64,000 nt of DNA, from assembly GCF_000023885.1 (NCBI RefSeq), contig NC_013165.1, positions 372,001-436,000 of the forward strand, read 5' to 3'. The DNA comes from Slackia heliotrinireducens DSM 20476 (lineage in GTDB: Bacteria; Actinomycetota; Coriobacteriia; Coriobacteriales; Eggerthellaceae). Shown here piece after piece: positions 14,045 to 59,026 of the stretch (the stretch's first letter is position 1; every line of letters starts with the position of its first letter). Below the pieces are notes generated by a model. It was given only the letters and a program-made list of their open reading frames with translations, searched no databases and was not told the DNA's origin. The translations under genes and the position numbers were made by a program.

Positions 14045-15221
14045 CCTACAGTCAACCAACGTAGGCATGCTAGGCACTCCCGAGCAGTCGGCCGCCGTGC
14101 TGTGCAAAAGGCTATAATGGCGGAGCCAAACAATGATCAGCCCAGGTGCCCATCCGGTCCATTGTTTGGCGACGATCCCGATCGGATGGGCGCCTGGGCG
14201 GATGGGATACCGCCATGTCCACCCGTACGAACCCGTTCGCGAAGCGGGTCAACGCCCTCGATGAGGGCGATTTCGCGCTCTTGCAAGAGGCCGTCGAGAC
14301 GAGAAGGTGCCGCGAGTCCGTCGGCGTCGGAGATTACGACGAGGCTGCCGACGAGTGGAGGCCCCGGCCCCCGTGCCCGAGATGCGGTTCCGGCGAGACC
14401 GTCGGCCGAGGCCGCACGGGTGCCGGCCGCAGGTTCTGGGAATGCCGCGACTGCGGTCGCAAGTACACGTCGTTGGCCGGCACGATATTCGAATCCTCGA
14501 AGAAGCCCCTGTCCGCATGGGTCCTCTTCATCCGCCTCATGTGCTACAACGTGCAGCTCGACGCTGCGGCGGAGCTCTGCGGGATGTCGCACCAGACGGC
14601 CTGGGAGTGGCGCCACCGGGTCATGAGCACGATAGACGGCTACCAGGACCGCATCGTCCTGCGGGACAAGGTCTGGATAGACGAGATGTACGTCACGGAC
14701 TCCGACCTGAAGGGAGGCCCGGGCTGGAGGCCGAAGAGGGGCCTGAGCAAGGACAAGGTCTGCATAGCGGTCGCGATCGACGTCCACAAGAACGTGGTCG
14801 CCGTGCGCTGCGGCCACGGCAAGCCCTCGGCCAGGCGCATCAAGGACGCGCTGCAGGCCAGCATCGCCGAGGGCTCCGAGATCTTCCACGACATGGAGAA
14901 GTCCCACAAGTCGCTGGTGAAGGCCGTGAAGGGCGTCGACCGGCCCTACAAGGCCGACACGAAGGACCCGGAGTACCTCGAGAAGATGGCGATGGTGAAC
15001 AACCTGTGCTCCTGGATCAGGCGCTACCTGCACGGCTACGTCGGCATGGACGTCAAGAACCTGCAGTCATATCTGAACTGGTACGCGTACCTGTTCAGGG
15101 TCAAGCGGGCCGAGGAGAAATGGCCCAAAGTGGAAAGGGTGCTCCGCCATTTGTTCATGGCCGACGCCACTTTCCGCAGCTCGCGCAAGCGCGGTCACGC
15201 CTACGTTGGTTGACTGTAGGG
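14045..15221 (+). mobile_element. IS1595-family insertion sequence, copy A
   Basis: This 1177-base element is bounded by perfect 22-base inverted repeats beginning CCTACAGTCAACCAACG. TTCCCAAATT lies on both sides, consistent with the 8-base target duplication of the IS1595 family (exact edge uncertain by one or two bases). The same element, with the same length and translated sequence, occurs at 46331-47507 and 55791-56967. Intact copies and preserved target repeats mean recent, probably still active, transposition. Confidence 0.92.
14215..15213 (+). CDS. IS1595 family transposase (copy A)
   Basis: The start at 14215 (MSTRTNPF) is chosen over the longer frame from 14146, whose first 23 codons lie in the untranslated end of the element. 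The 332-residue protein has an N-terminal zinc ribbon (CPRCGSGE and CRDCGRKY), as is usual for the family. An ISXO2-like catalytic domain follows, with WIDEMYV giving the first acidic residue, AIDVHKN further on, and a YLHGYVGMDVKNLQSYLNW block near the end. The stop codon lies inside the right inverted repeat. The protein is the same in all three copies. Confidence 0.93.
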   Translation: MSTRTNPFAKRVNALDEGDFALLQEAVETRRCRESVGVGDYDEAADEWRPRPPCPRCGSGETVGRGRTGAGRRFWECRDCGRKYTSLAGTIFESSKKPLSAWVLFIRLMCYNVQLDAAAELCGMSHQTAWEWRHRVMSTIDGYQDRIVLRDKVWIDEMYVTDSDLKGGPGWRPKRGLSKDKVCIAVAIDVHKNVVAVRCGHGKPSARRIKDALQASIAEGSEIFHDMEKSHKSLVKAVKGVDRPYKADTKDPEYLEKMAMVNNLCSWIRRYLHGYVGMDVKNLQSYLNWYAYLFRVKRAEEKWPKVERVLRHLFMADATFRSSRKRGHAYVG

Positions 15222-23532: not shown

Positions 23533-26500
23533 CTAGATGCTTCGGATTAGGGCTTTGAGCCTGCTCACAGCCTGCAGGGACTTCTTCGTGTCGAGGTCTT
23601 TTTCACCCAGATTGGCTTTGCGGTAATCAAGCACCTTCATGTGCATCGTCAGCGCCTCTTCTAGGGCTTTCTTCCGATTCTCGTCGGGCTTTTCTCCAGC
23701 TCGCTTTTCGAGAATGATTGCAATGTGGTACCTGCAGCGGGATAGGTCCTTGGCCCATTGCGTCTTCCCAGCAAAGGCGAGGTCTCTCTCGACTGCGCGC
23801 AGGATCTCGAGGGCCTCCTCGTACGAGCCCATGTCTTCGTACGCTACGGCGACGTTGGTGAGTGACAGCAGCGTTGACCGGTCTTGGTCCCCGAAGAGCG
23901 ACCTCCGTATTCTGTGCGATTCTCCGCACGAGGCCAGCGCGTCGTCCAGTCGTTGCGCGGCGTCGACCGCATCGGGCAGATTTTTGGCATACGACAAGCA
24001 CACTGCTCCGTAATTATTCAGCAGGCGGGCATAGGCAGCGCTGTTCCGCCCGTCAGACTTTTTGAGAACCTCGTGCTTGGCCGATTCGAGGAGGGCGAAC
24101 GAATCGGCGTACAGCCTCTCAGCTTTCCTGAGCTCGCCCGCCCGCGCAGCCTCCGATGCCAGCCGGTGCTTGGAAACCCCGACCGAGCTCTCAGCGTTGG
24201 CGGCGATGTTCTGCGCCCATTCTGTTCGAGAATCCTCTTTGAGCAGAGCTTGGGCTCTCTCCAGCACCTTTTGCTCGTCCTCGAGCGCTTCCATATGCAG
24301 GGCGACGTCGCCTGTCGAGATGTACATTTCGGAGAGTGCTGCGGATCTGTTCAGCCGCAGCTTCAGCTCCTTCTCGGGGTCGTCCCCGAACTCGTCCAGG
24401 GCGTAGTCGTACAGGTCCTTGGCTTCGTCGGACATTCTCGAGCCCCTCAGGTTGCCTGCGTACTCCATGATTGCCCCGAACATGGCTTCGCGCAGCTCGT
24501 CTCGGGCTCGTTTGCTGCAGCGGGGGTAGATTGCCCTCTCGGCCCTTCCAAGCCAGCGGAGCTTCTGATTGCGCTCTTGGACGGAAAGGTCCATCTTGAT
24601 GATGTGGTTCTTTCCGTCGGAGATGAGCCTTGCGATTACGAAGTCGAGGGTGTCGACGAAGTCCGATTTGGGGCCAACAGACTCTCGGAGGGTCCTCGCA
24701 ACGCACTCGTGCATGAAGTGGTAGCCCAGCGACGAGAGGACAAACGACATCTCGCCGACCTTTCTAACGACCCTTGGTCTGTCCCTTCCCTGTATCCAAT
24801 CCGGCAGGAACAGATCAAGGTCCGAGTCGGTCCATTCTCCCAGGAAAGCTGCGGCCATGCACGCATCCTGTTCGTTCTCGTCGAGGAGCCTCAGGTAGCG
24901 CGGTGCTATTGTGTCATGGTCAATCCCGTCGAAAAGCTCGCGCATATCGTCGGGAAGTGAGTCGAGCTCTTTCGCGTAGCTTGTGGCGAGGTCGATGTAG
25001 ATAGGCACACCTCTCGAGAAATCGCAGATTGCCGCGAGCGCAGCATCATCGAGTTCTCCGTTCGCAATGCTTTTTGCCATTGCGAACGAGTCATCTTGGT
25101 CAAGCTCAACGAAGCGAAGCGGATACTGGATTACATTTTCCCAGTTCACGCGATTTCTACCCACTACCACCCAGACTGTGTTCCTTGCGCAAGTCACCTC
25201 CTTGAACCATACGGACAGGTCGCCGATTCTCCGATCTAGGAGGTATTCTGCTTGATCGACGAGGATAACGATAGGCTTGTCTTCGAGCGCGCTCCACTGT
25301 TCGATGTCCCACCTCAGGAATCTGCCGACGCGCTCCTCGATGGAGTCCTTACTAAGCTTTGGAATCATCCCTGGCGCTGAGTCACCGAGCCCCTCGAACT
25401 GTCTCGCGGCCTCTATCGCAATCCTCACAGCCTCCCGTCTTTTCTGACTGTCGTCGAAGCCGAGCTGGAACCCGTCGAGCTCAGACATGAGATTCGCCAC
25501 TGCACTGTAGAGGTCGTCCATTGCGGCCTTTGCGAGCGTGTAGCAAGGGCAGAATAAGCCCTGCTTTTTCAAAGCGGCTGCGAATACGTCGGTCTGGTTC
25601 GGTCTCGCGGCCTCCTCGTGGTAGAAGTTTGCACGAACGCAGACCGTTCCCGGGTCGTTTTCTTGGACGCTGTTTGCCACCTCGTTTAAAAAATACGACT
25701 TTCCTTGGCCGCCAAAGCCATAGATAGAGATCACGACGCCTTTTGTCAGGTTGTATCTGTCCAGCGCCGGTCTCAGCATTCCCTGATAGAATGCGCCAAC
25801 TTCCCTGTTGGCTTTGTCGAGGTCTCCATCGCCTGGCCTAAGAGCAGCGAGCGTCGGCGGCGTTCCTCTCCGTTTGGGGACTGGCGCGCGCTCCTTGTCT
25901 ATCGCGGCGTCGAGCCACCTTGCCGTATACGTCTGGTCTTCGGTGGCTTCGGGCTCTCGAGGGGGATCCCAGCCGTCTATCAAGCCCCACCTTTCAAACG
26001 CGTAGGCGTTACCACTGTTGGGACGAGAGGAGCCTCGTCTTACCAGGAAGGTCTCGGTTGGAAAGAATCGGCCGCCTTGACCATCCGTGTATGTTACCCT
26101 GCATAGCCCGGCGCCTTTTTGACTCCCACGGGCCTCGATGGCCTCCATCACCATGCCAAGCGCCCACCGCATGTCACCTCGCACACTCGGGTCGGCGTTG
26201 GTGCACCTTTCGACGACGCACGCCAGCACGTCGTCGCCCGGCTCCTGCATCTCACCCAGGCGGGGAAGAAGATCCAGTGGCTCCCGCTTGACACTTGCCA
26301 TCCCGTCCAGCACGTCGGGGCTGTACCCTTTGCGGCCCTGGGCTCGAAGCCGGCTCAGGACGTCACCAATCTCCGCGCAGTGCGGCACGAGCCCCGTGCG
26401 CGCGCGGTAAATGAGCGAGCCGAACGTGTACATGTCACAAGACGGGTTGTTGCGATACTCCCAGTCGCCGCCGTCATCACAGGCGGGGATCAACGCCGAT

Positions 26501-27201
26501 AACATCTCGGGCGCAGCGTAATAGGCCTGGCCGAGACGGAACCTAGCCGTGGCGGGCGGGAGGGATCTTGTGCCCGCCTTGGCCGCCTGGCCCAGATCGA
26601 TCAGCTTGCATTCCAACGGGCTGTTGTCGTAGCGCAACAGGATATTCTCCGGCCACGCGTCCCGGTGTGACCATCCCCGGCGATGGACCTCGCCGAAGGC
26701 TAGGGCAAGTTCCCTTGCAAGCTCAAGCGTCCAACCGCAGTCGAGGGGTGTGCCGGCGGTGCCGCTCAGGTCGCCGTTCTCTAAGACGGTGGCCAGGCTC
26801 TTCAGGTCGAAGTGCTGCATGACTATGGCTGGCTTGTTGCCGAATCGCCCCATGGCAAGCGGCAGGGGCGTGTGGCCGTTGCACCCATTGAGTTCCTTCA
26901 GGCAGCCGAACTCGCGCCTCGCGGATGCGCCGTCGCCGCTTTCGAACACCTTCACGCCGGCCACCACGGCCTCGCCCGTGTCCAACGCGACGTAGTACAC
27001 GCCGAACCCGCCGGCCTTGCCGGTCTGACAGGCGTAAACGATTGGCTCCACGGCCTTCTCCGAGTCCGCATCGTCAGGTACGAACAGCTCCTTAAAGTCA
27101 TAAACGTCAGCCTGGGGTAACGGTCTGTTCGCCATCGGGGCGACCGGCCTTGCAGTCGGGCCTGCGCCGCCGGCGTTGACGGCTCTGCGAAAGTGCTTCA
27201 T
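23533..27201 (-). CDS. Ser/Thr kinase - STAND-type NTPase - TPR protein
   Basis: The ATG follows GGAGGGAG. The 1222-residue product starts with a kinase-like domain (residues about 55-350): VAGVKVF (Lys84), SHRDAWPEN (His179-Arg-Asp181, Asn186), and IDLGQA with DLG in place of DFG. Residues 367-429 resemble a Flg_new/InlB-type repeat (VTYTDGQGG, YTARW). An NTPase follows, with Walker A GFGGQGKS (495-502) and Walker B IVILVDQ (644-650). The last 300 residues look like TPR helices. STAND ATPases with TPRs act as sensing switches in immunity and signalling; here the output would be phosphorylation. It is divergent from a PP2C gene. Confidence 0.85.
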   Translation of the reverse strand: MKHFRRAVNAGGAGPTARPVAPMANRPLPQADVYDFKELFVPDDADSEKAVEPIVYACQTGKAGGFGVYYVALDTGEAVVAGVKVFESGDGASARREFGCLKELNGCNGHTPLPLAMGRFGNKPAIVMQHFDLKSLATVLENGDLSGTAGTPLDCGWTLELARELALAFGEVHRRGWSHRDAWPENILLRYDNSPLECKLIDLGQAAKAGTRSLPPATARFRLGQAYYAAPEMLSALIPACDDGGDWEYRNNPSCDMYTFGSLIYRARTGLVPHCAEIGDVLSRLRAQGRKGYSPDVLDGMASVKREPLDLLPRLGEMQEPGDDVLACVVERCTNADPSVRGDMRWALGMVMEAIEARGSQKGAGLCRVTYTDGQGGRFFPTETFLVRRGSSRPNSGNAYAFERWGLIDGWDPPREPEATEDQTYTARWLDAAIDKERAPVPKRRGTPPTLAALRPGDGDLDKANREVGAFYQGMLRPALDRYNLTKGVVISIYGFGGQGKSYFLNEVANSVQENDPGTVCVRANFYHEEAARPNQTDVFAAALKKQGLFCPCYTLAKAAMDDLYSAVANLMSELDGFQLGFDDSQKRREAVRIAIEAARQFEGLGDSAPGMIPKLSKDSIEERVGRFLRWDIEQWSALEDKPIVILVDQAEYLLDRRIGDLSVWFKEVTCARNTVWVVVGRNRVNWENVIQYPLRFVELDQDDSFAMAKSIANGELDDAALAAICDFSRGVPIYIDLATSYAKELDSLPDDMRELFDGIDHDTIAPRYLRLLDENEQDACMAAAFLGEWTDSDLDLFLPDWIQGRDRPRVVRKVGEMSFVLSSLGYHFMHECVARTLRESVGPKSDFVDTLDFVIARLISDGKNHIIKMDLSVQERNQKLRWLGRAERAIYPRCSKRARDELREAMFGAIMEYAGNLRGSRMSDEAKDLYDYALDEFGDDPEKELKLRLNRSAALSEMYISTGDVALHMEALEDEQKVLERAQALLKEDSRTEWAQNIAANAESSVGVSKHRLASEAARAGELRKAERLYADSFALLESAKHEVLKKSDGRNSAAYARLLNNYGAVCLSYAKNLPDAVDAAQRLDDALASCGESHRIRRSLFGDQDRSTLLSLTNVAVAYEDMGSYEEALEILRAVERDLAFAGKTQWAKDLSRCRYHIAIILEKRAGEKPDENRKKALEEALTMHMKVLDYRKANLGEKDLDTKKSLQAVSRLKALIRSI

Positions 27202-27473: not shown

Positions 27474-28199
27474 ATGGACTCCGAGAAAAGACTGAAGCTT
27501 ACCTATGCGGTTGCAACAGAGCGAGGTCGCCGGCAGGAAAACGAGGACTGCGCGACGGTCGGCATCAGCCCGACTTCCGGGCGCACGGAAATGCTCGCCG
27601 TATCCGACGGCATCGGCGGCGGCTTAGCGGGCGCCGAACTGAGCCGGCATGCCCTGGCCGGAGCGAAACGGGCCTTCGAGTCGGGCCTGGCGATCGAGGA
27701 CGTGGTGGCGGCGGCAGAGGAGTCGGTAGCGACGTGCAGAGCCTCCCTCGACGACTGGTCGGTTATGGCGGGGCCATGCGACCCGTTCAACCTTGCGAGA
27801 ATCGACGGCGCCGGCGCGACGTTGGTTGCGATGGTGCTGTCCGACAGCGGCGCGAGCCTGGCATGGCTGGGCGACAGCGTCGCCTACATCCTCCGCGATG
27901 GACGCGTTTCCCTTCTCACGCCACCGCACCGGGCTGCTGGGACTGAGCGCCTCACCAGGGCGCTCGGCTTCGGGCAGCACCCTGAGCTGGCAAGCATAGA
28001 AGTCAGAGCGGGTGACACCCTGCTGCTTTGCACTGACGGCGTATGGTCCTCGCTCAGCTGCGAGGAGACCGCGATGGTGCTGGCCAACAACCCCCTCCAG
28101 GCTGCCGCGACCGAGCTCGTGGTGCGAGGCGCAGAGAGCAGCGGCGATAACGCCACCGTGATTTTGGCAAAAGTGGCCGAGATAGGGCGCCTGGACTGA
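27474..28199 (+). CDS. PP2C-family protein phosphatase
   Basis: The ATG follows GAAAGGAAAGG. The 241-residue product has the PP2C metal motifs: GRRQENEDC (RxxNED type), AVSDGIGGG (DGxGG), WLGDSVAYI (GDSR type, with Val at the usual Arg) and CTDGVW then SGDNATVIL. PP2C phosphatases use two metal ions to remove phosphate from Ser/Thr. It is transcribed away from the kinase-STAND gene and upstream of the FHA gene, forming a kinase, phosphatase and phosphothreonine-reader set. Cytoplasmic, with no extra domains. Confidence 0.92.
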   Translation: MDSEKRLKLTYAVATERGRRQENEDCATVGISPTSGRTEMLAVSDGIGGGLAGAELSRHALAGAKRAFESGLAIEDVVAAAEESVATCRASLDDWSVMAGPCDPFNLARIDGAGATLVAMVLSDSGASLAWLGDSVAYILRDGRVSLLTPPHRAAGTERLTRALGFGQHPELASIEVRAGDTLLLCTDGVWSSLSCEETAMVLANNPLQAAATELVVRGAESSGDNATVILAKVAEIGRLD

Positions 28200-28266: not shown

Positions 28267-28272
28267 TATAAT
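28267..28272 (+). promoter_or_regulatory. Likely -10 box of the relaxase-FHA gene
   Basis: A consensus TATAAT lies 42 bases upstream of the ATG at 28314, in an otherwise GC-rich interval. No good -35 box is seen at the standard distance. GAGGGGAG before the ATG is the ribosome binding site. Confidence 0.45.
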
Positions 28273-28313
28273 GCTTTGAAAGATAAAACGCAATCGAGAG
28301 GGGAGACGGAAAG

Positions 28314-30149
28314 ATGATCGCCAGGTATGTTAAAGGGGACGCGACGAGCGCGATGAAGCACTTTACCCGGACATACGCGAACGAATATGAACAGCAAAAT
28401 GACGAACGGCTGCATAGGATAGAACATAGGTGGTCGCCCTACAACTACTCGACGTGCGACGCCGAGGAAGCCACGAGGCTCTTGATTGAGAGGGTTGACA
28501 CAGGAAATGCCACCTCGAGGACGGTCGTCCTACTCGATGCCACTGTGTACGCGGGTGCCCCGTGGGACGGCGAGAAGGGCCTGGGCGAACTGGATGATCT
28601 ATTCTCGCTCGCGGACGAATCGCTCCATGAAGAGTTCGTCGGGGACAACGCGCTGGGCACCTTCGTGCATTGGGACGAGAAGAACGTTGACGGTGACCCT
28701 TGCCCGCACGCTCATCTCTTGGTCCTCCCTTTTGATGCGACCGGCAGGTTCCGCGTCGACGAATTCGACGACGCGGAGGAAAGGATTGAGCGGCGCCTCA
28801 GGGAAAAACTGGCCAAAAGCGGGCTCAGAACCAGATTCTACATGAAAAGCGAGAGGGTCGTAGCCGAAGCGGGCGATCCGGCAGACTACAGCGTCTTCTC
28901 TGTTTTCAGGTCTTGCTGGGCGGCCCTCCTCGATGAGGGGTACAAGCTTGTCGAACCAGACGGCGAGTATATACCGGCCATGCAGGCCATCGACGCCTGC
29001 ATGCTTCCGGGCACGTTCGACGCGATGAAACCAGCCGAACGGTCAAGACTGTTCGCGACCTCCCCAGCGCGGCTGCTGGAGGTCGTGCTCCTCTCCAACG
29101 GGATGGGAAGCGAATGCATAAGCCGGTTCGCTGAGGACCCGCGCGAGGTGGCTGAATGCATCGACGGCATCATCCGCCGGAACGTCGACGACTACGCTCC
29201 AGCTTTCAAGTACGCCCTGATGTTGCGAGCTTCAAAAATCGAGTGGGTCGAGCGCATCAGGGACGTCTTTATGTGCCCCATGTCCGAGATTATCGACAAA
29301 TGCTACCTGCGCGGGGGCGATCAGTTTGCGGCCCGCCTCGATGCCTTGTGTCGATCCGAGGTCCGGGAGGCGAATTCTAGAGCCAAGTCGTATAAGAGGC
29401 AGGAGGTTGTCAGGTACCTTTTATCAGCGGCTTTGCTCGGGATTCAGGGCGTGGACTTCTATGACGACCTGTTCGGGTACCCCGCCGTCGCCGCGCTTGG
29501 CCAACGAGGTGATAGCGTAGGTCTCCCCGAGGTCACGCCAGGCGGCGTCGCAGGCAGGACAGGCCGCCAACCCGAAGCGATGGCAGTGCTTACCACCGCT
29601 TTCTTTTCGCCTGCGAAAGAGCAATTCGTGGTCGACGGCCTTTCAGCTTCGCTACACCGCACGGATCGAGAGGTTATCATCGGTGCAGACTACACCTCGG
29701 ATCACTTCGTACCGCGCGTTGATGTGGGCCCAGGCTTCTTGACGAGCCGCCTCCACGCTGTCGTCTACAACGACGCGCCAGAAGAAGCCACGGCGGAGGA
29801 GGCGGGCGAGTGCTGGTTCGTCCGAGACACATCCAGTTACGGCACGGCGGTGGTTCATTCACTCGATGAGCTTGAGGCCCTGTTCTCGGATGACGGCATT
29901 TGCACAGCTACGAAGCTTCTAGGATCCGGCGCAACGGTCGACGCGAACTCAAAACAAGGCGCAAGGCTCACGAGCGGGGACTTCATCGTCTTGGGGGTCT
30001 ACGCCCGAGGTAACGTGAAGTTGGGCGATGGGTCTGTCCTCAGGATCGTAGGTGAAGATGGCAGCCGCCGATGGGAGGAGCTCCGACGCGTCTGTGCCGC
30101 CGTAAGATTCGATTCTGTGATGGCAAGGGATGATAGCTTGCGGAGATGA
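28314..30149 (+). CDS. MobV-relaxase-like domain fused to FHA domain
   Basis: The 611-residue product has two recognisable parts. The first 180 residues follow the order of MobV/Mob_Pre plasmid relaxases: MKHFTRTYANEY then SPYNYST (the H-x2-R...NY block), TVVLLDATVYAG, and FVHWDEKN...CPHAHLLVLPF (H119, D121-E122, P131-H132-x-H134), matching the HLDE...TPHMH catalytic motif. The C-terminal part, from about residue 440, has an FHA-like domain (EVIIGADY, LTSRLHAVVY, SSYGTAV). FHA domains bind phosphothreonine. The middle is unrecognised. With a kinase and PP2C beside it, the nuclease-like part may be recruited by phosphorylation. The relaxase call is motif-based. Confidence 0.7.
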   Translation: MIARYVKGDATSAMKHFTRTYANEYEQQNDERLHRIEHRWSPYNYSTCDAEEATRLLIERVDTGNATSRTVVLLDATVYAGAPWDGEKGLGELDDLFSLADESLHEEFVGDNALGTFVHWDEKNVDGDPCPHAHLLVLPFDATGRFRVDEFDDAEERIERRLREKLAKSGLRTRFYMKSERVVAEAGDPADYSVFSVFRSCWAALLDEGYKLVEPDGEYIPAMQAIDACMLPGTFDAMKPAERSRLFATSPARLLEVVLLSNGMGSECISRFAEDPREVAECIDGIIRRNVDDYAPAFKYALMLRASKIEWVERIRDVFMCPMSEIIDKCYLRGGDQFAARLDALCRSEVREANSRAKSYKRQEVVRYLLSAALLGIQGVDFYDDLFGYPAVAALGQRGDSVGLPEVTPGGVAGRTGRQPEAMAVLTTAFFSPAKEQFVVDGLSASLHRTDREVIIGADYTSDHFVPRVDVGPGFLTSRLHAVVYNDAPEEATAEEAGECWFVRDTSSYGTAVVHSLDELEALFSDDGICTATKLLGSGATVDANSKQGARLTSGDFIVLGVYARGNVKLGDGSVLRIVGEDGSRRWEELRRVCAAVRFDSVMARDDSLRR

Positions 30150-31574: not shown

Positions 31575-32759
31575 TCACACGAACCCGATTCGGCGGCGCG
31601 TCGACGAAACATCGAGTTCGTGAGACACTTCGCTCACAGCGCTGACGAACGCCCCGTTGTCGATTTCGAAGCTGACGGAATCCTGTCTTGCAAGAGACAG
31701 AACACATTTGTCGACCAGATTGCGCATTGTTCGCGCTTGTGCGAAGCCATCCTTCTGGCTTAGCTTATCGACGGCGGAGAGAAAGACCGGTTCGTCGACC
31801 CTGTCGTTGAAACCGCGCTGTTCTGCCATGAGCGAGAAAATGGCCCTCTGCTCCACTGCGGAGTATCCTGTCAGCTCGTACTTGATGGGGAACCGGCTTT
31901 TGAGCCCGGGGTTTTGCGAGAGCAAATCCATGGTCTCGTCCCTGTACCCGGCCAGTACCACTATGGTGTCCGATCGTCGCTCTTCAGTGAGCTGGTTGAT
32001 GGCGTGAAGGGCCTCGCGAGCGTGCGACCCGGAATGTGCGTCCGCAGACGAGAGCCTATACGCCTCGTCGATAAGGAGAACGCCACCGCGTGCAGAGTCG
32101 AAGACGGAACGCACCTTGGTGGGCGTCTCGCCGACGTACTCCGAAATGAGCTGTGAAGCGTCAGCCTGGGTGAACTTCCCGGTCGAGACGCCGGCCTGCC
32201 CGTAGGCTGCCGCCATCCGTCGAGCAATCTCGGTCTTGCCCGTCCCCGGCGGGCCAAGCAACACGGTCCCAAGGCTGGAGAGAGAGCCGCGGCCGAACCT
32301 GCTCACAGCCTTCACGACCGCCGTAATCCCTTCACGAACCTCAGCCAGCCCGACGAGGCCGTCGAAGGACGACCCAATGTCTCCCGTGGGGGCCGCCGGG
32401 GCGACATCTGCCGCCGACACAGACCGTCGCAGGCGGGAGGAGTCGCCGAGCCGCGTGAGGGCATCTACGACCTGCCGCCCTTGACCCGCGAGGACACCGA
32501 GAGGGACATTCCTAAGCTCTGCCTTGTAGCCGTTGTGTTCCAGAGCCTCCTTCAGGTCATCGGCACTCGGCGTATCTGGCTTTGAGCGAGGGTCCGGCTC
32601 CTTAACCACGATCCCGAGGACAAAGCCATTCTCTGCCTGCTTCGCTTGGCCGACCTCCACGGGGAGACCGAGCGAGAGTACGAGGCCAATGCACTTTGCG
32701 ACGTCAGCCCAGTCGACGTCGGCTGGGAGGCGAACCGATCCCACATAGTACGTCGCCAT
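31575..32759 (-). CDS. AAA+ ATPase, CbbX/SpoVK-like
   Basis: The ATG follows GAGGAGG. The 394-residue product has an N-terminal region of about 120 residues without a clear family. A single CbbX/SpoVK/EccA-type AAA+ module follows: FDGLVGLAEV, Walker A GPPGTGKT (169-176), SEYVGETPTKV pore region, Walker B VLLIDEAYRL (227-236), a sensor block VVLAGYRD and an arginine-finger region (NPGLKSRFP). These hexamers remodel protein complexes. Neighbouring kinase, PP2C and FHA genes suggest that its client is controlled by phosphorylation. No rubisco or ESX genes are present, so CbbX or EccA roles do not apply. Confidence 0.88.
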   Translation of the reverse strand: MATYYVGSVRLPADVDWADVAKCIGLVLSLGLPVEVGQAKQAENGFVLGIVVKEPDPRSKPDTPSADDLKEALEHNGYKAELRNVPLGVLAGQGRQVVDALTRLGDSSRLRRSVSAADVAPAAPTGDIGSSFDGLVGLAEVREGITAVVKAVSRFGRGSLSSLGTVLLGPPGTGKTEIARRMAAAYGQAGVSTGKFTQADASQLISEYVGETPTKVRSVFDSARGGVLLIDEAYRLSSADAHSGSHAREALHAINQLTEERRSDTIVVLAGYRDETMDLLSQNPGLKSRFPIKYELTGYSAVEQRAIFSLMAEQRGFNDRVDEPVFLSAVDKLSQKDGFAQARTMRNLVDKCVLSLARQDSVSFEIDNGAFVSAVSEVSHELDVSSTRRRIGFV

Positions 32760-32943
32760 CGAGCTACCTCCTCTTCTGTCGTACGCCAGGCCGGACCCGT
32801 CATCCGTGCGACAAGGCCCTGTCCTGCTCCAGCGACGTACACGATACAGGAAGACGTCTCCCGCCTCTTGCGCAAAGGAGTCGGCGAGCGTCGGCTATCA
32901 TCGGGGGCGCAGCAGTTCAAGCAGAATTTCACGGAGGTAGCCC

Positions 32944-34071
32944 ATGATACCGAGCGCGACTTTCAGGGCCGATTCCTATTGGCGCGGCCCCACTCGAATG
33001 GGACCGCTTCGCAGGGCAGATGCACCAGGAGGCGGTTTCGCAAATCTATACACGGCTTTCAGCCCGGACTACGGGACAGTGGCGATCAAGGTGTTCCACC
33101 ACACTGAGAGGGACGTGGCAGGATTCGCACTCGACCGCAGGGTGGCCGACTTCGAGTATACCCGCCTGTGCCAGATGAACGGTGCCGGTGGCCATGCCCC
33201 GGCACCTCTCGCAATCGGAACGGTTGGTGAAGGCGACGCGGATAGGCGCGTGGCTATTGCCATGGAGTACATCGAGGGGGTCAACATCGAGCAGGCGGTC
33301 GAGGGAGGATGGCTAACGGGCGGCAGCCGCGGCCTCCCAAATACCGGCGTTGTTGCTGACGTATGTTCCAAGGCGTGCGCTGCGTTGCTTTCGTGTTCGC
33401 CCGTTTCGAACCGTGATTTCAGCCCGCGAAGCCTCATGGTAAGGAGGGATGCGCACGCGATAAGAGACGTTGTGGTGGTTGATTTCGGGCAATCTGTCGA
33501 CAGCCGATCAAGCATGGTCACGCCAGGCATGGGCAATAAGCGGCTGGCTACGCCCTGCTTCGGCGCGCCAGAGGTATTCGGAGGACCGTTTTACCACCAA
33601 AGAAACTCAAGAGCCACGGACTCTTATTCGATAGGCTGTATCGCGTATTACATGCGCACCGGTCGACCGCCATTCCGAGCCCTCATGTGCGTCGATCCCA
33701 CATCACCAGAGGGGGCGGCCAGCGTCGTTGCTGCAAAACGGGCCCCTATCGCCATCGAGTTCGTCGGCGGCTCCGAGGCCGACTCCATGCTTGCCGATGT
33801 GATTCGCAGCTGCACTGACTTCTGCCCCTCTAACAGGCCTTCTATCAGTTCCCTTGAGACGGTCTTTCGGGAGATTGCGGCTGCAGGTGGAGTCGGGAGC
33901 GAGGCTGTTGCTGGCATACATCCTGACAATAAGACAAAGGACGTCACCCTGCCAGACGCATGCCGAAGAGCTGTTGTGTCGGTTGCGGTTGGCCTTGTTT
34001 GTGGTGGCGTCACAGCTCTGCTCCCGCTGGCTTTCGAGTGGGTATCAGGAACGGTCTGCCTTCTTTTCTGA
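32944..34071 (+). CDS. Membrane-anchored kinase-like protein with altered catalytic loop
   Basis: The ATG follows GGAGGTAGCCC. The 375-residue product has a kinase fold: GGGFANLYTA loop, VAIKVF with Lys49, MEYIEG hinge, then NRDFSPRS (156-163) where HRDxxxxN is expected, and VVDFGQS (DFG 180-182). The catalytic Asp and the DFG Asp are kept, but His is Asn and the Mg-binding Asn is Ser. It may be a weak kinase or a pseudokinase. A hydrophobic segment near 342-372 would anchor it in the membrane with the kinase part inside. It is divergent from the AAA+ gene. Confidence 0.8.
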   Translation: MIPSATFRADSYWRGPTRMGPLRRADAPGGGFANLYTAFSPDYGTVAIKVFHHTERDVAGFALDRRVADFEYTRLCQMNGAGGHAPAPLAIGTVGEGDADRRVAIAMEYIEGVNIEQAVEGGWLTGGSRGLPNTGVVADVCSKACAALLSCSPVSNRDFSPRSLMVRRDAHAIRDVVVVDFGQSVDSRSSMVTPGMGNKRLATPCFGAPEVFGGPFYHQRNSRATDSYSIGCIAYYMRTGRPPFRALMCVDPTSPEGAASVVAAKRAPIAIEFVGGSEADSMLADVIRSCTDFCPSNRPSISSLETVFREIAAAGGVGSEAVAGIHPDNKTKDVTLPDACRRAVVSVAVGLVCGGVTALLPLAFEWVSGTVCLLF

Positions 34072-36247: not shown

Positions 36248-36889
36248 ATGACGCTAGAAATTGCCTGCGAATTGTGTGGGTCAAATCAGCTAACTCGGAA
36301 TGCGGATGGCACTTATCAATGTGACCGTTGCGGAACGAAATACACGCTCGAAGCTGCAAGGCAGTTAATGAAGGGCGGAGCCTTCAGGAATAACAGCGCT
36401 GATTTCGTTGTTGAGGGTGGAACACTAGTCAGGTATACGGGCGCGGACTTGAATGTCGTAGTTCCGGACGGCGTGATAACGATAGGGTCGCGCGCGTTTG
36501 AGAATACTTCCATACAATCGATCGTTCTTCCAGAAGGCTTAGTTGCAATAGAGGGCGGAAGCTACAACTCTTCATCTTTTATGAGGTGCAGGTTCCTTAA
36601 GTCGGTCCGATTTCCTAAGTCTCTCGAAAAGATTGGCAAATATGCGTTCTGCCGCTGCGACGCATTGGAGCAAATAGAATTCTGCGGCGAGCCAGCAATG
36701 GCGGAATCCTTTGTCGATTGCCCTCGGCTTCGTACGGTGCGTTATGCCAGTCGGGTATTTATTGTGCCAAAGTTTCGAGAGGATCTTTCCCTTGGTTTGG
36801 GTTTGAGCTTTGACAAGGACGCCCCAGTTAAGTCGAACTATCAATTTGACGCCATATACGTTAATGGAGAAAAAAATCACCGCCTATAA
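36248..36889 (+). pseudogene. Zinc-ribbon / BspA-type leucine-rich-repeat protein (frame 1)
   Basis: The ATG at 36248 follows GGAAGGTG. The reading begins with a zinc ribbon (CELCGSNQ and CDRCGTKY), then BspA-type repeats (ITIGSRAFENTSIQSIVLP, KIGKYAFCRCDALEQIEF). It ends at 36889, just after a run of seven A at about 36868. In the -1 frame the reading continues (36864-37063) into a further zinc ribbon. The gene either uses -1 frameshifting or has a frameshift mutation. An IS110 element then separates the last codons. Cytoplasmic by lack of a signal; function unknown. Confidence 0.72.
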
Positions 36890-46330: not shown

Positions 46331-47507
46331 CCCTACAGTCAACCAACGTAGGCGTGACCGCGCTTGCGCGAGCTGCGGAAAGTGGCGTCGGCCATGAACA
46401 AATGGCGGAGCACCCTTTCCACTTTGGGCCATTTCTCCTCGGCCCGCTTGACCCTGAACAGGTACGCGTACCAGTTCAGATATGACTGCAGGTTCTTGAC
46501 GTCCATGCCGACGTAGCCGTGCAGGTAGCGCCTGATCCAGGAGCACAGGTTGTTCACCATCGCCATCTTCTCGAGGTACTCCGGGTCCTTCGTGTCGGCC
46601 TTGTAGGGCCGGTCGACGCCCTTCACGGCCTTCACCAGCGACTTGTGGGACTTCTCCATGTCGTGGAAGATCTCGGAGCCCTCGGCGATGCTGGCCTGCA
46701 GCGCGTCCTTGATGCGCCTGGCCGAGGGCTTGCCGTGGCCGCAGCGCACGGCGACCACGTTCTTGTGGACGTCGATCGCGACCGCTATGCAGACCTTGTC
46801 CTTGCTCAGGCCCCTCTTCGGCCTCCAGCCCGGGCCTCCCTTCAGGTCGGAGTCCGTGACGTACATCTCGTCTATCCAGACCTTGTCCCGCAGGACGATG
46901 CGGTCCTGGTAGCCGTCTATCGTGCTCATGACCCGGTGGCGCCACTCCCAGGCCGTCTGGTGCGACATCCCGCAGAGCTCCGCCGCAGCGTCGAGCTGCA
47001 CGTTGTAGCACATGAGGCGGATGAAGAGGACCCATGCGGACAGGGGCTTCTTCGAGGATTCGAATATCGTGCCGGCCAACGACGTGTACTTGCGACCGCA
47101 GTCGCGGCATTCCCAGAACCTGCGGCCGGCACCCGTGCGGCCTCGGCCGACGGTCTCGCCGGAACCGCATCTCGGGCACGGGGGCCGGGGCCTCCACTCG
47201 TCGGCAGCCTCGTCGTAATCTCCGACGCCGACGGACTCGCGGCACCTTCTCGTCTCGACGGCCTCTTGCAAGAGCGCGAAATCGCCCTCATCGAGGGCGT
47301 TGACCCGCTTCGCGAACGGGTTCGTACGGGTGGACATGGCGGTATCCCATCCGCCCAGGCGCCCATCCGATCGGGATCGTCGCCAAACAATGGACCGGAT
47401 GGGCACCTGGGCTGATCATTGTTTGGCTCCGCCATTATAGCCTTTTGCACAGCACGGCGGCCGACTGCTCGGGAGTGCCTAGCATGCCTACGTTGGTTGA
47501 CTGTAGG
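46331..47507 (-). mobile_element. IS1595-family insertion sequence, copy B
   Basis: Inverted copy of the 1177-base element, with the same 22-base terminal repeats. AAAAGAAAA lies on both sides as target duplication. It interrupts the membrane-protein gene that starts at 46084. Confidence 0.92.
46339..47337 (-). CDS. IS1595 family transposase (copy B)
   Basis: This is the same protein as that encoded at 14215-15213, with zinc ribbon and ISXO2-like catalytic region. The start MSTRTNPF is at 47337; the longer frame from 47406 lies in the element's untranslated end. I see no difference from the other copies. Confidence 0.93.
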   Translation of the reverse strand: MSTRTNPFAKRVNALDEGDFALLQEAVETRRCRESVGVGDYDEAADEWRPRPPCPRCGSGETVGRGRTGAGRRFWECRDCGRKYTSLAGTIFESSKKPLSAWVLFIRLMCYNVQLDAAAELCGMSHQTAWEWRHRVMSTIDGYQDRIVLRDKVWIDEMYVTDSDLKGGPGWRPKRGLSKDKVCIAVAIDVHKNVVAVRCGHGKPSARRIKDALQASIAEGSEIFHDMEKSHKSLVKAVKGVDRPYKADTKDPEYLEKMAMVNNLCSWIRRYLHGYVGMDVKNLQSYLNWYAYLFRVKRAEEKWPKVERVLRHLFMADATFRSSRKRGHAYVG

Positions 47508-48176: not shown

Positions 48177-48959
48177 CTACATGCTGTGAGAATCAAGCTT
48201 CGATTGCGAGATGGTATTCGCGCCGACGTTTTCCGTGTCTATGTCGACAATTATCAGTGAGCAATTATCGCTGGATTCAAGTTGGTATAGCCTTTCTAGG
48301 ATACAAGAGCAACCATCCCCTGGATGGCGTGAACTCATTGCCAGCTGCTTCAGGCGTTCGTTTCCCAAGGTGCCCCATACGCCATCTGAACAGAGCAAAT
48401 ACCGTAGTTTCCCAGCTCGAAGAACTTGGGTATAGAAGTGGGCGTTAGGGTTTTCGGTTGGCCCGATGGCCTGCGTAATCCCGGGGGAATTATCGTCGAT
48501 ACGGTCATCAATGGTCATTTGACCCATGGAATTGCCCCAGATGCAGTAGATTCGACAATCGCCAACATTGATAAAGCTGACTTCGTTGTCACGGAAAGTC
48601 AACATGGCAAAAGCAGCACCCATTCGGGGGGTGCCCCGCGCCTCTCCAGAGTGTGCAATCTTCCTCGACAGGCCCTTAAGCATCTCAGTTGCCTCGCCGT
48701 CGCTTGGGGGTATGTGGTGCGTCGAAAGGAATGTAGCGCAAAGTGCCGCTGCGTTTTTTCCTCCCTTATAACCGCCCATTCCGTCGATGACAGCAAAGGA
48801 TACTGCCTCTTGGCTGGTTTTTCCGTTCCATTCGGCATGGGATTCGCTGCCCAAACAAATCGAGCCTGGGAGAATAATCGCATCTTGATTTTCTTCTCTG
48901 GCTGGGCCGACGTCTGTAAAGCCGGCGGCCTCGATGCGAATTTCTGTATGGTCGCTCAT
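48177..48959 (-). CDS. PP2C-family protein phosphatase (second island)
   Basis: The ATG follows GGAGTGAG. The 260-residue product has PP2C motifs: GPAREENQDAIIL (RxxNQD), FAVIDGMGGYKGG (DGMGG), FINVGDCRIY (GDCR) and LLCSDGVW, then ESSDNCSLIIVDI. It is the last gene of the minus-strand operon that also encodes a Ser/Thr kinase and an FHA protein, so it should reverse the kinase's phosphorylation. It is not closely similar to the PP2C at 27474, which argues for two independent systems. Confidence 0.93.
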   Translation of the reverse strand: MSDHTEIRIEAAGFTDVGPAREENQDAIILPGSICLGSESHAEWNGKTSQEAVSFAVIDGMGGYKGGKNAAALCATFLSTHHIPPSDGEATEMLKGLSRKIAHSGEARGTPRMGAAFAMLTFRDNEVSFINVGDCRIYCIWGNSMGQMTIDDRIDDNSPGITQAIGPTENPNAHFYTQVLRAGKLRYLLCSDGVWGTLGNERLKQLAMSSRHPGDGCSCILERLYQLESSDNCSLIIVDIDTENVGANTISQSKLDSHSM

Positions 48960-48965
48960 GATGGC

Positions 48966-49520
48966 TCACTCCGCCCGCAAAACAACGACCGCTCGATTGC
49001 CAAGATGTATCTCAAGAGGAAGCCTTCCAGTGAACATTTCATTTGGCATCAAGGGCTCTCCGTCGTCACCAATCCATGTGCCGTTGGTTGACCCAAGGTC
49101 GATTACCGTCACGCATGTTCCTTGGGGGTCGAACCGTAGAGTGCAATGCCTTCTCGATACACCGTCGCAATGACTCAATGAATTTGCTACCTTCTCGTTA
49201 TGCGATTCTCGTCCTATCACGGTTTCCTCGGATGTTGGAAGAAGGATGCTTGAGCCGTCTGGCATTAACGCTAAGACCCTGTCGCCAATAAGGATGGTTT
49301 GACCGCACTGGTCGCATTCTTCGCCAGCGATACCTGTATAACCGCAATTTGGGCAAGTTGCGAAATTACGATTATCAGTTTTATCGTGCCCCGCTTCATT
49401 TGTGCGCTCTTGCTCCGACGGCGTATCCAGAGGTTTTGAAACTGGAATCGCCGTTAGCAAGACTGGGCAGTAATCTGTTCCTGCTTTATGCCGTTTGCCA
49501 CACAACGGGCAGGTCATCAT
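48966..49520 (-). CDS. Zinc-ribbon and FHA domain protein
   Basis: The start at 49520 overlaps the stop of the radical SAM gene (ATGA). The roughly 184-residue product begins with a Cys pair (TCPLCGKRH) and then a zinc ribbon (CPNCGYTG and CDQCGQ). A complete FHA domain follows: VIGRESH, GVSRRHCTLRF, and DLGSTNGTWIG, with the Arg, Ser-Arg-Arg-His and Asn-Gly-Thr residues that contact phosphothreonine. It is the predicted reader of the operon's kinase. Coupled to genes on both sides. Confidence 0.92.
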   Translation of the reverse strand: MMTCPLCGKRHKAGTDYCPVLLTAIPVSKPLDTPSEQERTNEAGHDKTDNRNFATCPNCGYTGIAGEECDQCGQTILIGDRVLALMPDGSSILLPTSEETVIGRESHNEKVANSLSHCDGVSRRHCTLRFDPQGTCVTVIDLGSTNGTWIGDDGEPLMPNEMFTGRLPLEIHLGNRAVVVLRAE

Positions 49521-50155
49521 TTCTTCCAAGATACCTCACCAAACACTATTCCTCTACTTTGCAGCTCTTCTTCTAACGCCTCCATCCCATGGGGGAATGG
49601 CAGGCCCACCATGGTGACGTCGCCATCATTGATGTTAACTTGAATACTGTTCACGACGTTCGTCGTCGAAGCATTCGTAAGCAACTCGTATCCTCGATCT
49701 GAACAAATGGCGTATTGCTGGTTTTCCGAAGCAATTAATGGCCTTTGTGAAGGGAGGTCGGATATGTATGGACCACATATTGCCAAATCGATAGACGAAA
49801 TGAGTGTTGCGTGATTCGCTAATAGATCTTCCCGTGGGATTCCGGAGAACATAACAACCCTCATGCCGGGCAGCTTTTCGGTAACTAACGACAGGACCTG
49901 CTCAAGGGAGCTCGCTTGCTCGGTTGGTTCTCCGCCCGTTACAACAATGCCGTCGAGATTTTCTTCGCGTATGGTTTTAATTATCAAATCGGAAAGCCAC
50001 TGCTCATCTGCGGACGTCCCTCCTTGCTTATCCCAGGTGTCTTTCGAAATACAACCTGGGCATGCGATACTGCATCCCTGCACCCATAAACCGAGATATC
50101 GGCCAGGCCCTAAAGATGTAATGGGAAATGCTATACGGGATATCTGAATGCTCAT
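49517..50155 (-). CDS. NrdG-like radical SAM protein
   Basis: The start overlaps the stop of the AAA+ gene (ATGA) and follows GAGGAG. The 212-residue product has the radical SAM motif CSIACPGC (Cys28, Cys32, Cys35) and a VVTGGEP block, and is as short as NrdG activases and 7-carboxy-7-deazaguanine synthase-type enzymes. It should bind a [4Fe-4S] cluster and SAM to make a radical. No NrdD or glycyl-radical enzyme gene is near. Being locked into a kinase/FHA/AAA+ operon points to a different partner, perhaps a modified protein or nucleotide signal. Confidence 0.88.
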   Translation of the reverse strand: MSIQISRIAFPITSLGPGRYLGLWVQGCSIACPGCISKDTWDKQGGTSADEQWLSDLIIKTIREENLDGIVVTGGEPTEQASSLEQVLSLVTEKLPGMRVVMFSGIPREDLLANHATLISSIDLAICGPYISDLPSQRPLIASENQQYAICSDRGYELLTNASTTNVVNSIQVNINDGDVTMVGLPFPHGMEALEEELQSRGIVFGEVSWKK

Positions 50156-52179
50156 AGCTCCTCTATTAAGACGTCGGGACGGCCAAGTCTGTCTTCGTTG
50201 AATGCGGTAATGATTAGAGAGGATCCAGCTGGATAATTAAACAGTATTCGCCCTAAAGGATTGGTTAACCGGGTTTCTAATTCTGTCGTTATGCCTCTGC
50301 CTCCATTCCGAAGAACACTGCGCGTAGTGACCGAAGCAACTAGCTCCTCGAAGGCCTCTTTAGAAATGTTCACTTCAATTCCGACACGAATGCGAATATT
50401 GGAAAGAATAGTCTCGATGAATCTAACCGCAAGATTGACAGCTTCGTCTCCATGTATTGGGTTAAAGATAACGATATTGTCCCCTAACCGGCCGAGCAGC
50501 TCTGGTCTATTCAGCGTTTCTGTAAAATGCGACTTTACTGCATCCATTATTGCCCGCTCGTAACGCGAGGTTTGTTCGGGGTCGGACATATCCAAGTCGA
50601 GGAGATTGCCCGCTGCGGCAACTCCTTGATTGGATGTAAATATTATCAATGTATCTGTGAAATCGACAGTTCTGCCGCCGCCATCGGTCAGTCGACCATC
50701 TGAGAGAATTTGCAGGAACAAATCGTACACTTGGCTTCCTGCCTTGTCCATCTCGTCAAAGAGGATGATCGAATGGGGTCTTTGCATAACGGCATTGGTC
50801 AGCTCTCCTCCTGCGCCGAAACCAACATAACTAGGAGGTGCGCCAATTAATCGAATCTTTGCGTGGTCATCCTGGAACTCAGACATGTCAAAACGTATCA
50901 GTGCACGCTCATCGGCAAAGACGAGTTCGGTAATCGCTTTTGCCATTTCTGTTTTTCCGACACCGGTTGGGCCAGCGAAGTAGAGTACACCGCGAGGTGC
51001 AGAAGATGCTTTCTTCTGATGTGCTCCGGTAAGCCCCAAAGCGGATCTTTTCAATATGTCAAGCACGCGGGATACGGCCTGATCTTGGCCGTACACACGT
51101 TGCCTGAGAGTTGCTTCGCCATTCATAAGCTGCTCGCGAAGCCGGTTGTTCTGCCATGGGTTCTCAGAAAGCCCTTGGCGGTACATACGCACTGCGTTCT
51201 CTATCTCGGATGATAAAGAACTGGATTCGCCAGCTAATTGGATTGACTCAAACATGCCTCGACTCGAAAGACCTTCTGTCGCATCCGCAAATCGCCTCGC
51301 TACGCTGTCCTTTTCACCCTCGTCGATACGGTCTTCTAGGAGCAATTGCGCCATACGGTATCGCATGTCGTAGCTGGGATTCGATATTGGGATTCGCCTG
51401 ATGCCGTCTCCGTGGGTTAGCCACGTCGGAAGGTCATCGAGTTTGTCTACAAGCCAGATGATCGGATGTCGCTGGGATCTCGACCCGGAGTCTCCGGATA
51501 GCCTGAGTAGCTTATTATCTAAAAGGACGTGGGCGTTTGCAATTTGAAGGCACGTGAGCATGAGTTCATGAAGAATGTTGTTCGAGGCCTGATCAATGTC
51601 GGATGTCTGAGAAGCATAATCAACGAGCAGGCTCATCGGGATGGAGTCGCTCGTGGCAACGGCTCTTGCGACGAGTTCCAATCCTGGCCAACCCATACCT
51701 TGTGTGTTCTGCGGGAATCTTGACTCAAGTCTGTTCTTGGGAGGGCGCACAAGATTGCGAAGAACGTTCGACGGAACCGTTTCTTCCAGCTTTTTCGTAA
51801 CCTGGTCATCCTTTAGATCTTCTGTCATACGAGCAATGGATAAGCCGTTGAGCGTGTCGAAAGTGAGTAAGCATTTGAAGCCGGAGGCTTGGAGAATTTG
51901 CCAAATGGCGTTGACTGTTGTGTCGGGGCGTAACTCCTCGGATATCTGGATCGGATGAATGTCGTGCACAGCTCCGTATAGCACCGTTACCGCCGAGATG
52001 GGCAGGGAAGCATAAAGTGTTCTAATCCAGAGAGGGGTGTTTTTGTTGTCTGCATCAAGCCATGACGCTTCTTCTTCGAATCCTGCATTCAAAGAAATGG
52101 AAGTTGGGCTATCGATCATGGTGGGGCTCTCGTTCAGTATCTGCTCGTCTGATCTGCGTTGACAGCTGCCGTTCATCAC
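50152..52179 (-). CDS. ClpB-like AAA+ ATPase
   Basis: The start (GTG 52179 or ATG 52176) overlaps the stop of the upstream gene. The 675-residue product has a degenerate first part: IIWLVDKLDDLP near 240-251 looks like a Walker B region, but no Walker A precedes it. The second part is a full Clp-type AAA+ module: VYGQDQAV, Walker A GPTGVGKT (403-410), Walker B ILFDEMDKA (472-480), IFTSNQG and an R-finger region (LLGRLGDNIVIF). This matches the second ATPase ring of ClpB/ClpV. Such machines unfold or disassemble complexes. No Clp N-domain is seen. Confidence 0.87.
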   Translation of the reverse strand: MMNGSCQRRSDEQILNESPTMIDSPTSISLNAGFEEEASWLDADNKNTPLWIRTLYASLPISAVTVLYGAVHDIHPIQISEELRPDTTVNAIWQILQASGFKCLLTFDTLNGLSIARMTEDLKDDQVTKKLEETVPSNVLRNLVRPPKNRLESRFPQNTQGMGWPGLELVARAVATSDSIPMSLLVDYASQTSDIDQASNNILHELMLTCLQIANAHVLLDNKLLRLSGDSGSRSQRHPIIWLVDKLDDLPTWLTHGDGIRRIPISNPSYDMRYRMAQLLLEDRIDEGEKDSVARRFADATEGLSSRGMFESIQLAGESSSLSSEIENAVRMYRQGLSENPWQNNRLREQLMNGEATLRQRVYGQDQAVSRVLDILKRSALGLTGAHQKKASSAPRGVLYFAGPTGVGKTEMAKAITELVFADERALIRFDMSEFQDDHAKIRLIGAPPSYVGFGAGGELTNAVMQRPHSIILFDEMDKAGSQVYDLFLQILSDGRLTDGGGRTVDFTDTLIIFTSNQGVAAAGNLLDLDMSDPEQTSRYERAIMDAVKSHFTETLNRPELLGRLGDNIVIFNPIHGDEAVNLAVRFIETILSNIRIRVGIEVNISKEAFEELVASVTTRSVLRNGGRGITTELETRLTNPLGRILFNYPAGSSLIITAFNEDRLGRPDVLIEEL

Positions 52180-53474
52180 ATCATCCTTTCACGAGTGTGC
52201 CCGGCCTTTTGTGCTCGTGTGTTGTTTTGACCAACCCGTCTTTTGGAGAGGAGCGAGGTCGGGCATTCGCCAGGCATCCTCTCTGACACAAGGTCCATTT
52301 CTATACCATGGTTTTCCAATTTGTCAGCTAGAGAATGCACCATTGGGCATGTGTCTTGCTCTGCTCGGGTGTCTTGGTCGGGGTTGCTTTCGGAATAGGA
52401 GACGACGCGCGTAAGAATCTGCGCTGATTTCGGATTGTTCTGAATGCGAATGCCATATCCTGGCACTGAGGAATGCAATGCGACACCGACCTTTCCGAAG
52501 TCGGTTGTCGAAAACTCTTCTCCAATGGTGAACCCCAATGCCTCCAGAGCTTCTCGCAACGCAGCTTGGACATATTTTTCGTCCTCTGCCTTACTGTATT
52601 CGGCGAGCGCTTCGGACACCGCAGACTTGAGTTCGTTGTAAGAACTTCTTGATGAAACGTTTTCGGACATCAATCTAGCCTGGTCAGCGAGTTCTGATTC
52701 TACGTGTTCAATTTGCAGAATCTCTTTTGCGGCTAATTCCGCCCAGCCCTCCGCTTCGAGGATCGAATGGAGCCAGTTTTTTAGTGAAAACAGCTCCCCT
52801 TCGGCAGCGGATTGGTCGGAAAGGTTGGCTATACATTCGAGTCTTTCTCTAGCGATCTGGCGGTTGCTGCTGTCGCGCACCTGCGATATGGCATCGGTAA
52901 CTGGCGGCAGAAGTTCAGCGAGAACGGGGTCCTTGTCTTTGGATGCCTGCCTTATTGGAAAAACCTGGAAAGAGAAATGCTGTGTAGTCTGACCGTATGA
53001 TTTCGCGGCGGAACTTGCCACGCTTTTGGCCTCTGCATTCTTTGCGTCTTGTGATGCTAAGAGTATTGCCTGCATGAGAACCGATTCATCGTTCAATGAG
53101 CCCATGGCATTCTTAGCAGCAGCAATGTAGTCGTTTTCGGTTAGCTCAGCTGCTAGGTATTTGCTGCTTCGAATTATTTCACTTAGCTCAGTCTTCAATC
53201 CGCAGATGCGGAGTCTCCTATTCTCATCATCGATACACGATTTGATTTCGGATTCCGTTTGGATCAGTAGTCGCTCATCTTCTGCCGAATAGATAGTTTG
53301 CCTTTCGATGGGCCTGGGTAGCTCGTGGGAAATGCCGAGCTGAATTGCGACTTCGAAAAGTTCCTTGATTCTCGACATAAGTTTTGTGCAGCGAATCAAA
53401 CGCGCAGCATTTTCGCGTCGTTGCAGCTCGATTTGGTTTATAACCTTATAGTTGTATGCTTTTGGGCCACTCAT
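52176..53474 (-). CDS. Coiled-coil protein of unknown function (MSGPKAYNY start)
   Basis: The start at 53474 follows GTGGAGG; the reading open to 53612 lacks a site. The 432-residue product begins MSGPKAYNYKVINQIELQRR and is mostly helical with charged heptad-like segments. Its last 90 residues form a more globular end (LGFTIGEEFSTTDFGKVG, VPGYGIRIQNN). There is no signal peptide and no membrane helix. It is coupled to the ClpB-like gene by a 4-base overlap, so it may be an adaptor or substrate of that ATPase. I recognise no family. Confidence 0.75.
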   Translation of the reverse strand: MSGPKAYNYKVINQIELQRRENAARLIRCTKLMSRIKELFEVAIQLGISHELPRPIERQTIYSAEDERLLIQTESEIKSCIDDENRRLRICGLKTELSEIIRSSKYLAAELTENDYIAAAKNAMGSLNDESVLMQAILLASQDAKNAEAKSVASSAAKSYGQTTQHFSFQVFPIRQASKDKDPVLAELLPPVTDAISQVRDSSNRQIARERLECIANLSDQSAAEGELFSLKNWLHSILEAEGWAELAAKEILQIEHVESELADQARLMSENVSSRSSYNELKSAVSEALAEYSKAEDEKYVQAALREALEALGFTIGEEFSTTDFGKVGVALHSSVPGYGIRIQNNPKSAQILTRVVSYSESNPDQDTRAEQDTCPMVHSLADKLENHGIEMDLVSERMPGECPTSLLSKRRVGQNNTRAQKAGHTRERMM

Positions 53475-53747
53475 ATTGCCTCCACATGAGATGATGTTTC
53501 TCCCTTTTGATTCACTATCTAGGACTTGATGCTCTGGTTTCCGCATTTCATGCATACGCCCGCTCATCAATACCCGTGTGGTTTGCGGCATGCAATCTCT
53601 TTTTAGTAGCATATGGGCTCAAATCCGAGGATGCATTTTCATTGTTTTGATCTGCCAAACCTAATGCATGCCGCGTCTCCATCGAGTTTTATGCGTCTGC
53701 AATCGGAGAGCTTTGGGGTTGACGTGATCAACCTCGCAAAACGTTCG

Positions 53748-58995: not shown

Positions 58996-59026
58996 AATGG
59001 CATTCTCCCAACATTGATCGTATTTG

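Follow-up and report, generated by a model that had tools for sequence, protein, structure and literature searches.

A MobV-like relaxase domain fused to an FHA-like domain beside a Ser/Thr kinase and a PP2C phosphatase in Slackia heliotrinireducens

Gene neighbourhood of the fusion protein

The window analysed here, a stretch of 64,000 nucleotides from Slackia heliotrinireducens DSM 20476 (NC_013165.1, positions 372,001 to 436,000 of the forward strand), belongs to a genome represented by a single contig of 3.17 Mb that is 99.9% complete. At positions 28314-30149 of the window (plus strand) lies an intact open reading frame of 611 codons with an ATG start, which encodes a MobV-like relaxase domain, a middle region predicted to be helical and an FHA-like C-terminus. 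The relaxase-like and FHA-like parts thus share one frame, as a sequence-only reading of this DNA had stated. The GC content by codon position is uniform along the gene (0.62/0.40/0.72 in the relaxase part and 0.62/0.47/0.70 in the rest) and similar to that of the neighbouring genes, so that the fusion does not look artefactual. Judging from a TATAAT sequence at 28267-28272 (plus strand) and an SD-like sequence, GAGAGGGGAG, at 28296-28305, both 5' of the gene, the latter may have its own promoter; a two-hexamer promoter scan gave no match ahead of it.

Directly 5' of the fusion gene, 114 bp away and co-directional with it, is a gene for a PP2C-type Ser/Thr phosphatase of 241 aa (27474-28199, plus strand; Pfam PP2C_2, E = 7.7e-12; NCBIfam Stp1, E = 3.7e-22). 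Divergent from the phosphatase gene is one (23533-27201, minus strand) encoding a 1222-aa protein composed of a Ser/Thr kinase domain (Pkinase, E = 3.3e-11), a P-loop NTPase domain (weak AAA_16 match) and TPR repeats (TPR_12, E = 4.3e-11). This protein carries the kinase motifs HRDAWPEN and DLG as well as the Walker A (GFGGQGKS) and Walker B (ILVDQAE) motifs of an NTPase that we infer to be STAND-like. The motifs of both the kinase and the phosphatase look intact, and the kinase and phosphatase neighbours noticed from the letters of the DNA are indeed in place.

Elsewhere in the window, the interval 31575-34071 holds a CbbX/SpoVK-like AAA ATPase divergent from a second kinase, which is 31% identical to the first and reads NRD at the HRD motif. 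BspA-type leucine-rich repeats together with a zinc ribbon are found at 36248-36889, and resembling repeats are fused to a related kinase at another locus (L073:8469-10655). A further signalling cluster, with mostly consecutive genes on the minus strand, spans 48177-59154 and comprises a PP2C phosphatase, a zinc-ribbon FHA protein, a radical-SAM-type protein, a ClpB-like AAA ATPase and a large kinase. Three open reading frames of 355 aa (14146-15213, 46339-47406 and 55799-56866), each with a 298-aa frame on the opposite strand, are probably copies of one insertion sequence.

The divergent MobV relaxase domain

The identification of residues 1-160 (28314-28793, plus strand) as a divergent MobV (Mob_Pre) HUH relaxase domain is well supported by Pfam, NCBIfam, hhalign, HMMER, BLASTP and structure modelling. 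The region includes motif I (H16-F-T-R19; 28359-28370), a further motif, N44-Y45-S46-T47, and the two halves of motif III that make up the metal site, H119-W-D121-E122 (28668-28679) and P131-H132-A-H134 (28704-28715), the latter being the HUH motif; all are on the plus strand. Pfam Mob_Pre (PF01076) matches residues 34-155 with E = 4.4e-4 and 20.6 bits, below its curated cut-off of 25.5, and NCBIfam MobV (NF041497) matches residues 10-153 with E = 1.7e-4 and 21.7 bits, below its curated cut-off of 100; the fusion protein is the sole Mob_Pre match of the whole genome. Alignment with hhalign to a profile of seven MobVs from the class gave a probability of 96.3, E = 1.9e-9 and a score of 64.8, with 60 shuffles reaching at most 22.8, and an HMM of class MobVs run with HMMER against 18 proteins of the window matched the fusion protein with E = 1.4e-12. 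BLASTP against 41 MobVs from viral contigs, a small database, yielded E-values of 9.6e-7, 1.1e-5 and 2.0e-5.

A 30-row alignment shows no variation at H119, D121, E122, P131, H132 and H134, and at least 90% of its rows have H16 and R19; outside the catalytic residues, identity to MobVs is roughly 20%. The metal-binding His cluster that the sequence-only reading had proposed to look for (H119, H132 and H134 with D121 and E122) is thus complete, and the HxxR of motif I is present, with H16 and R19 aligned to their MobV counterparts and H16 falling in the column of the candidate nucleophile His. MobM and its family cleave DNA by means of a histidine with Mn2+ (PMC5863519), and H16 is, by alignment, the candidate nucleophile and putative counterpart of the catalytic His of MobM. 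The motifs had been described as following both the order and the spacing of MobV relaxases; the order holds, whereas the spacing does not, since H132 lies 10 positions after E122 versus 4 in the MobM alignment, which makes the HxDE-to-HxH loop 6 residues longer. Loops of similar or greater length are found in three MobVs of the class (L040, L033 and L036). The class also contains unusually long MobV-like proteins (L215, L217, L221 and L222; open frames of 638-827 aa), in some of which HxDE is altered to DADE or DVDE.

A structure model built from 6 sequences was of low quality, with a mean pLDDT of 58, and had no Foldseek match at E < 0.001, although HUH transposases and TrwC recurred in the list. 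A second model, built from 29 MobV rows, reached a confidence of ~63-88 per 10-residue block over the first 160 residues (~66-88 for residues 11-150), and its top six Foldseek matches in the PDB were all MobM chains (probability 1.00; TM by target 0.55-0.59; E-values of 2.7e-4 to 4.1e-4 for five and 9.5e-3 for the sixth), followed by TrwC. Only MobM crystal structures were matched at E < 0.001, and a fold search of BFVD with the model gave no match at that threshold. Because the input rows are MobVs, the fold is partly assumed, and the model speaks for compatibility with the MobM fold more than for its independent discovery; read in this way, the comparison with MobM that had been recommended for this domain turned out as predicted. 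Similarly, a profile combining the class MobVs with the relaxase domain had MobM (4lvi group) as its sole match among solved structures, a partly circular result.

MobM of pMV158, the prototype MOBV1 relaxase (PDB 4lvi-4lvm), thus has in common with the fusion protein the motif order, the candidate nucleophile His, the Arg that follows it and the metal site, as well as, according to the model made with MobV rows, the fold of the first 160 residues. The two proteins differ in sequence (~20% identity), in the length of the HxDE-to-HxH loop, in the FHA domain that replaces the coiled-coil tail of MobM, and in the chromosomal signalling neighbourhood of the fusion gene.

The FHA-like C-terminus and the kinase-FHA partnership

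The C-terminus is well supported as a divergent FHA domain, which occupies approximately residues 449-580 (29658-30053, plus strand) and includes I456-G-A, S478-R-L-H481, D505-TSSYGT511 and G555-D556. FHA (PF00498) is the sole Pfam family found in this part, at E = 0.11 and 13.4 bits, below the cut-off of 20.7, and hhalign against FHA domains encoded next to kinases in the class gave a probability of 92.6 and a score of 45.3, with 60 shuffles at or below 17.5, in agreement with the FHA-like C-terminus reported from the sequence. The domain retains G457, S478, H481, G510, T511 and the GD pair, but the usual phosphate-binding Arg is replaced by A458, so that the FHA 'GR' reads 'GA' here, and the Asn of NGT is replaced by Y509 (YGT). 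The missing Arg makes a plain phosphothreonine reading uncertain. Several kinase-neighbour FHAs of the class (L088, L089, L090 and L094) likewise do not have this Arg, so that decay alone does not account for its absence and the form recurs; like the fusion protein, these four carry IGA, IGC or VGA where IGR is usual, and they possibly form a subgroup that reads something besides plain phosphothreonine. In the 29-row model, the C-terminus has a pLDDT of ~25-50 and no confident fold. The middle region (residues 171-374; 28824-29435, plus strand) consists of helices predicted with low confidence and matches no Pfam family; its profile score against the helical segment of FHA proteins encoded next to kinases was 24.7, with shuffles up to 21.8, a weak similarity.

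Kinases paired with FHA proteins are common in the class, and at the loci fetched for the most similar class kinases an FHA gene was present in five of five and a related PP2C gene in two of five, from which we conclude that the pairing recurs. The FHA proteins associated with such kinases (L073, L074, L076, L077 and L083) resemble the fusion protein in that the FHA domain is C-terminal, following a region of ~200-290 aa, and the gene adjoins that of a related kinase; unlike the fusion protein, they are devoid of a relaxase domain. The kinase-FHA partnership is therefore a recurrent theme, to which the relaxase domain is an unusual addition. MobV-like proteins are encoded in about 23 of 338 class genomes, an FHA match being present as well in only one, the fusion protein described here.

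No full-length relative of the fusion protein was found among 100 relatives, 398 genomes of the class, 396 genomes of the phylum, genome contigs (a collection scanned by short exact patterns only), viral contigs, plasmids and phages, and both this protein and the architecture of the 1222-aa kinase are strain-specific, being absent from the searched relatives. Weak matches, such as those in Euzebya and G731, are probably due to chance. The DNA pattern for HWDE-x8-PHxH occurred in 10 stretches of the genome contigs, in 3 of which the motif was in an open frame; none of these 3 candidates resembled the fusion protein or a MobV by BLASTP or HMM comparison. The sequence-only reading knew of no described MobV-FHA fusion, and among open-licence papers we found none linking MobV or other relaxases with an FHA fusion.

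Chromosomal setting and possible roles

Relaxases are the enzymes that start plasmid transfer, and MobV relaxases use coupling proteins supplied in trans. No T4SS coupling ATPase, tyrosine integrase or resolvase is encoded within ~400 kb of the fusion gene, the distances to recombinases covering three families, and the window and the ~400 kb around it yielded neither a recombinase nor a coupling protein nor a replication gene. A non-systematic look for oriT gave no oriT-like target for the fusion protein. As neither a transfer ATPase nor a site-specific recombinase lies within ~400 kb, the fusion gene probably does not serve to mobilise a plasmid, and an ordinary mobilisation relaxase was rejected as the first-choice reading because the transfer partners expected of a mobile-element relaxase are missing over this distance. 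The chromosomal, non-mobile setting fits the domestication of the relaxase that the sequence-only reading suggested. The protein might still serve in mobilisation, as the relaxase of a mobilisable element that has integrated or decayed and whose transfer host kinase signalling controls via the FHA domain: the coupling ATPases of the genome, at 2.12 and 3.14 Mb, could act in trans, and IS elements flank the region. Nevertheless, given the lack of recombinase, coupling-protein and replication genes within ~400 kb, the signalling genes that form its neighbourhood and the absence of a near-identical plasmid copy of the gene among our matches, we regard this scenario as distinctly improbable.

Alternatively, the HUH domain might have lost the ability to cut and serve to bind DNA or a nucleic-acid structure, making the fusion protein a phosphorylation-controlled DNA-binding adaptor or regulator. 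Such a function would be in line with the divergence from true MobVs seen in the sub-threshold scores of both curated models, the longer HxDE-to-HxH loop and a lineage without transfer partners, and yet H16, R19 and all four metal-site residues are retained despite roughly 20% identity elsewhere, which would be unexpected had catalysis been lost, and the adaptor appears unlikely. A housekeeping role alongside the kinase, for instance in cell-cycle or DNA-repair signalling, with the relaxase domain processing the single-stranded DNA of the cell itself, is compatible with the abundance of kinase/FHA pairs in the class and with the PADLOC defence models, none of which matches the fusion protein, while the kinase neighbour matches through its kinase domain only; the strain-specific occurrence of the protein and of the kinase architecture, typical of accessory genes, speaks against this role, which strikes us as improbable. 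The low scores of the curated models could also signify that an unrelated domain resembles a relaxase by chance, but BLASTP, the profiles, the conserved residues and the structure comparison all point the same way and the shuffles fail, leaving very little room for this interpretation.

The fusion of the two domains and the kinase and phosphatase genes next to it suggest, on sequence grounds, a DNA-cutting enzyme under phosphorylation control. The explanation that we rate highest, at about even odds, is that a chromosomal signalling module of kinase and phosphatase acts on DNA through the fusion protein, in which a relaxase domain was recruited onto a kinase-accompanying FHA protein. More tentatively, as a possibility short of being probable, we propose a phosphorylation-switched HUH nickase, the activity or location of which is set by the sensor-type kinase and PP2C, whereby a domesticated relaxase would cut and covalently cap single-stranded DNA as a defence effector. 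In the sequence of events that we infer for the module, the TPR/NTPase part of the 1222-aa protein would sense a trigger, upon which this protein would phosphorylate itself or a partner; docking of the FHA-like domain on the resulting mark would recruit or unlock the relaxase domain, which, with H16 serving as its nucleophile and H119/E122/H132/H134 holding a metal, would nick and covalently cap single-stranded DNA and so stop an invader, or the cell, from replicating. The PP2C phosphatase would reset the switch. Defence is perhaps the purpose of the module. That the fusion protein is a single instance in everything searched counts against this explanation, as do the missing Arg and the YGT of the FHA domain, the partly assumed relaxase fold with no Foldseek match below 0.001 for the 6-sequence model, the unmatched helical middle and the lack of both a PADLOC match to the protein and an oriT-like target.

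To our knowledge, no relaxase has been described as a phosphorylation-switched defence effector, but there are precedents for parts of the scheme. In the kinase-kinase-phosphatase (KKP) module, a Ser/Thr kinase is balanced by a phosphatase, as may be the case at the present locus, and the module functions in phage defence, thus providing a precedent for a kinase-phosphatase defence switch; toxicity, however, stems from the kinases themselves, and the passages considered mention neither a relaxase nor a nuclease as output (PMC11341870). In NTP-dependent conflict systems, effectors consisting of a PIN RNase and an FHA domain are encoded beside NTPases and, like the fusion protein, join a nuclease domain to a phosphopeptide-binding FHA domain with NTPases adjoining (PMC7159879). 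PIN, unlike the HUH domain of the fusion protein, to which it is unrelated, acts on RNA, and the word relaxase does not occur in PMC7159879.

If the proposed nickase is real, a DNA-nicking output would be added to bacterial Ser/Thr kinase systems, in the form of a protein in which phosphorylation might turn nicking on or off. A chromosomal relaxase tied to phospho-signalling would further mean that such nickases can be converted into regulated, DNA-acting effectors of the cell.
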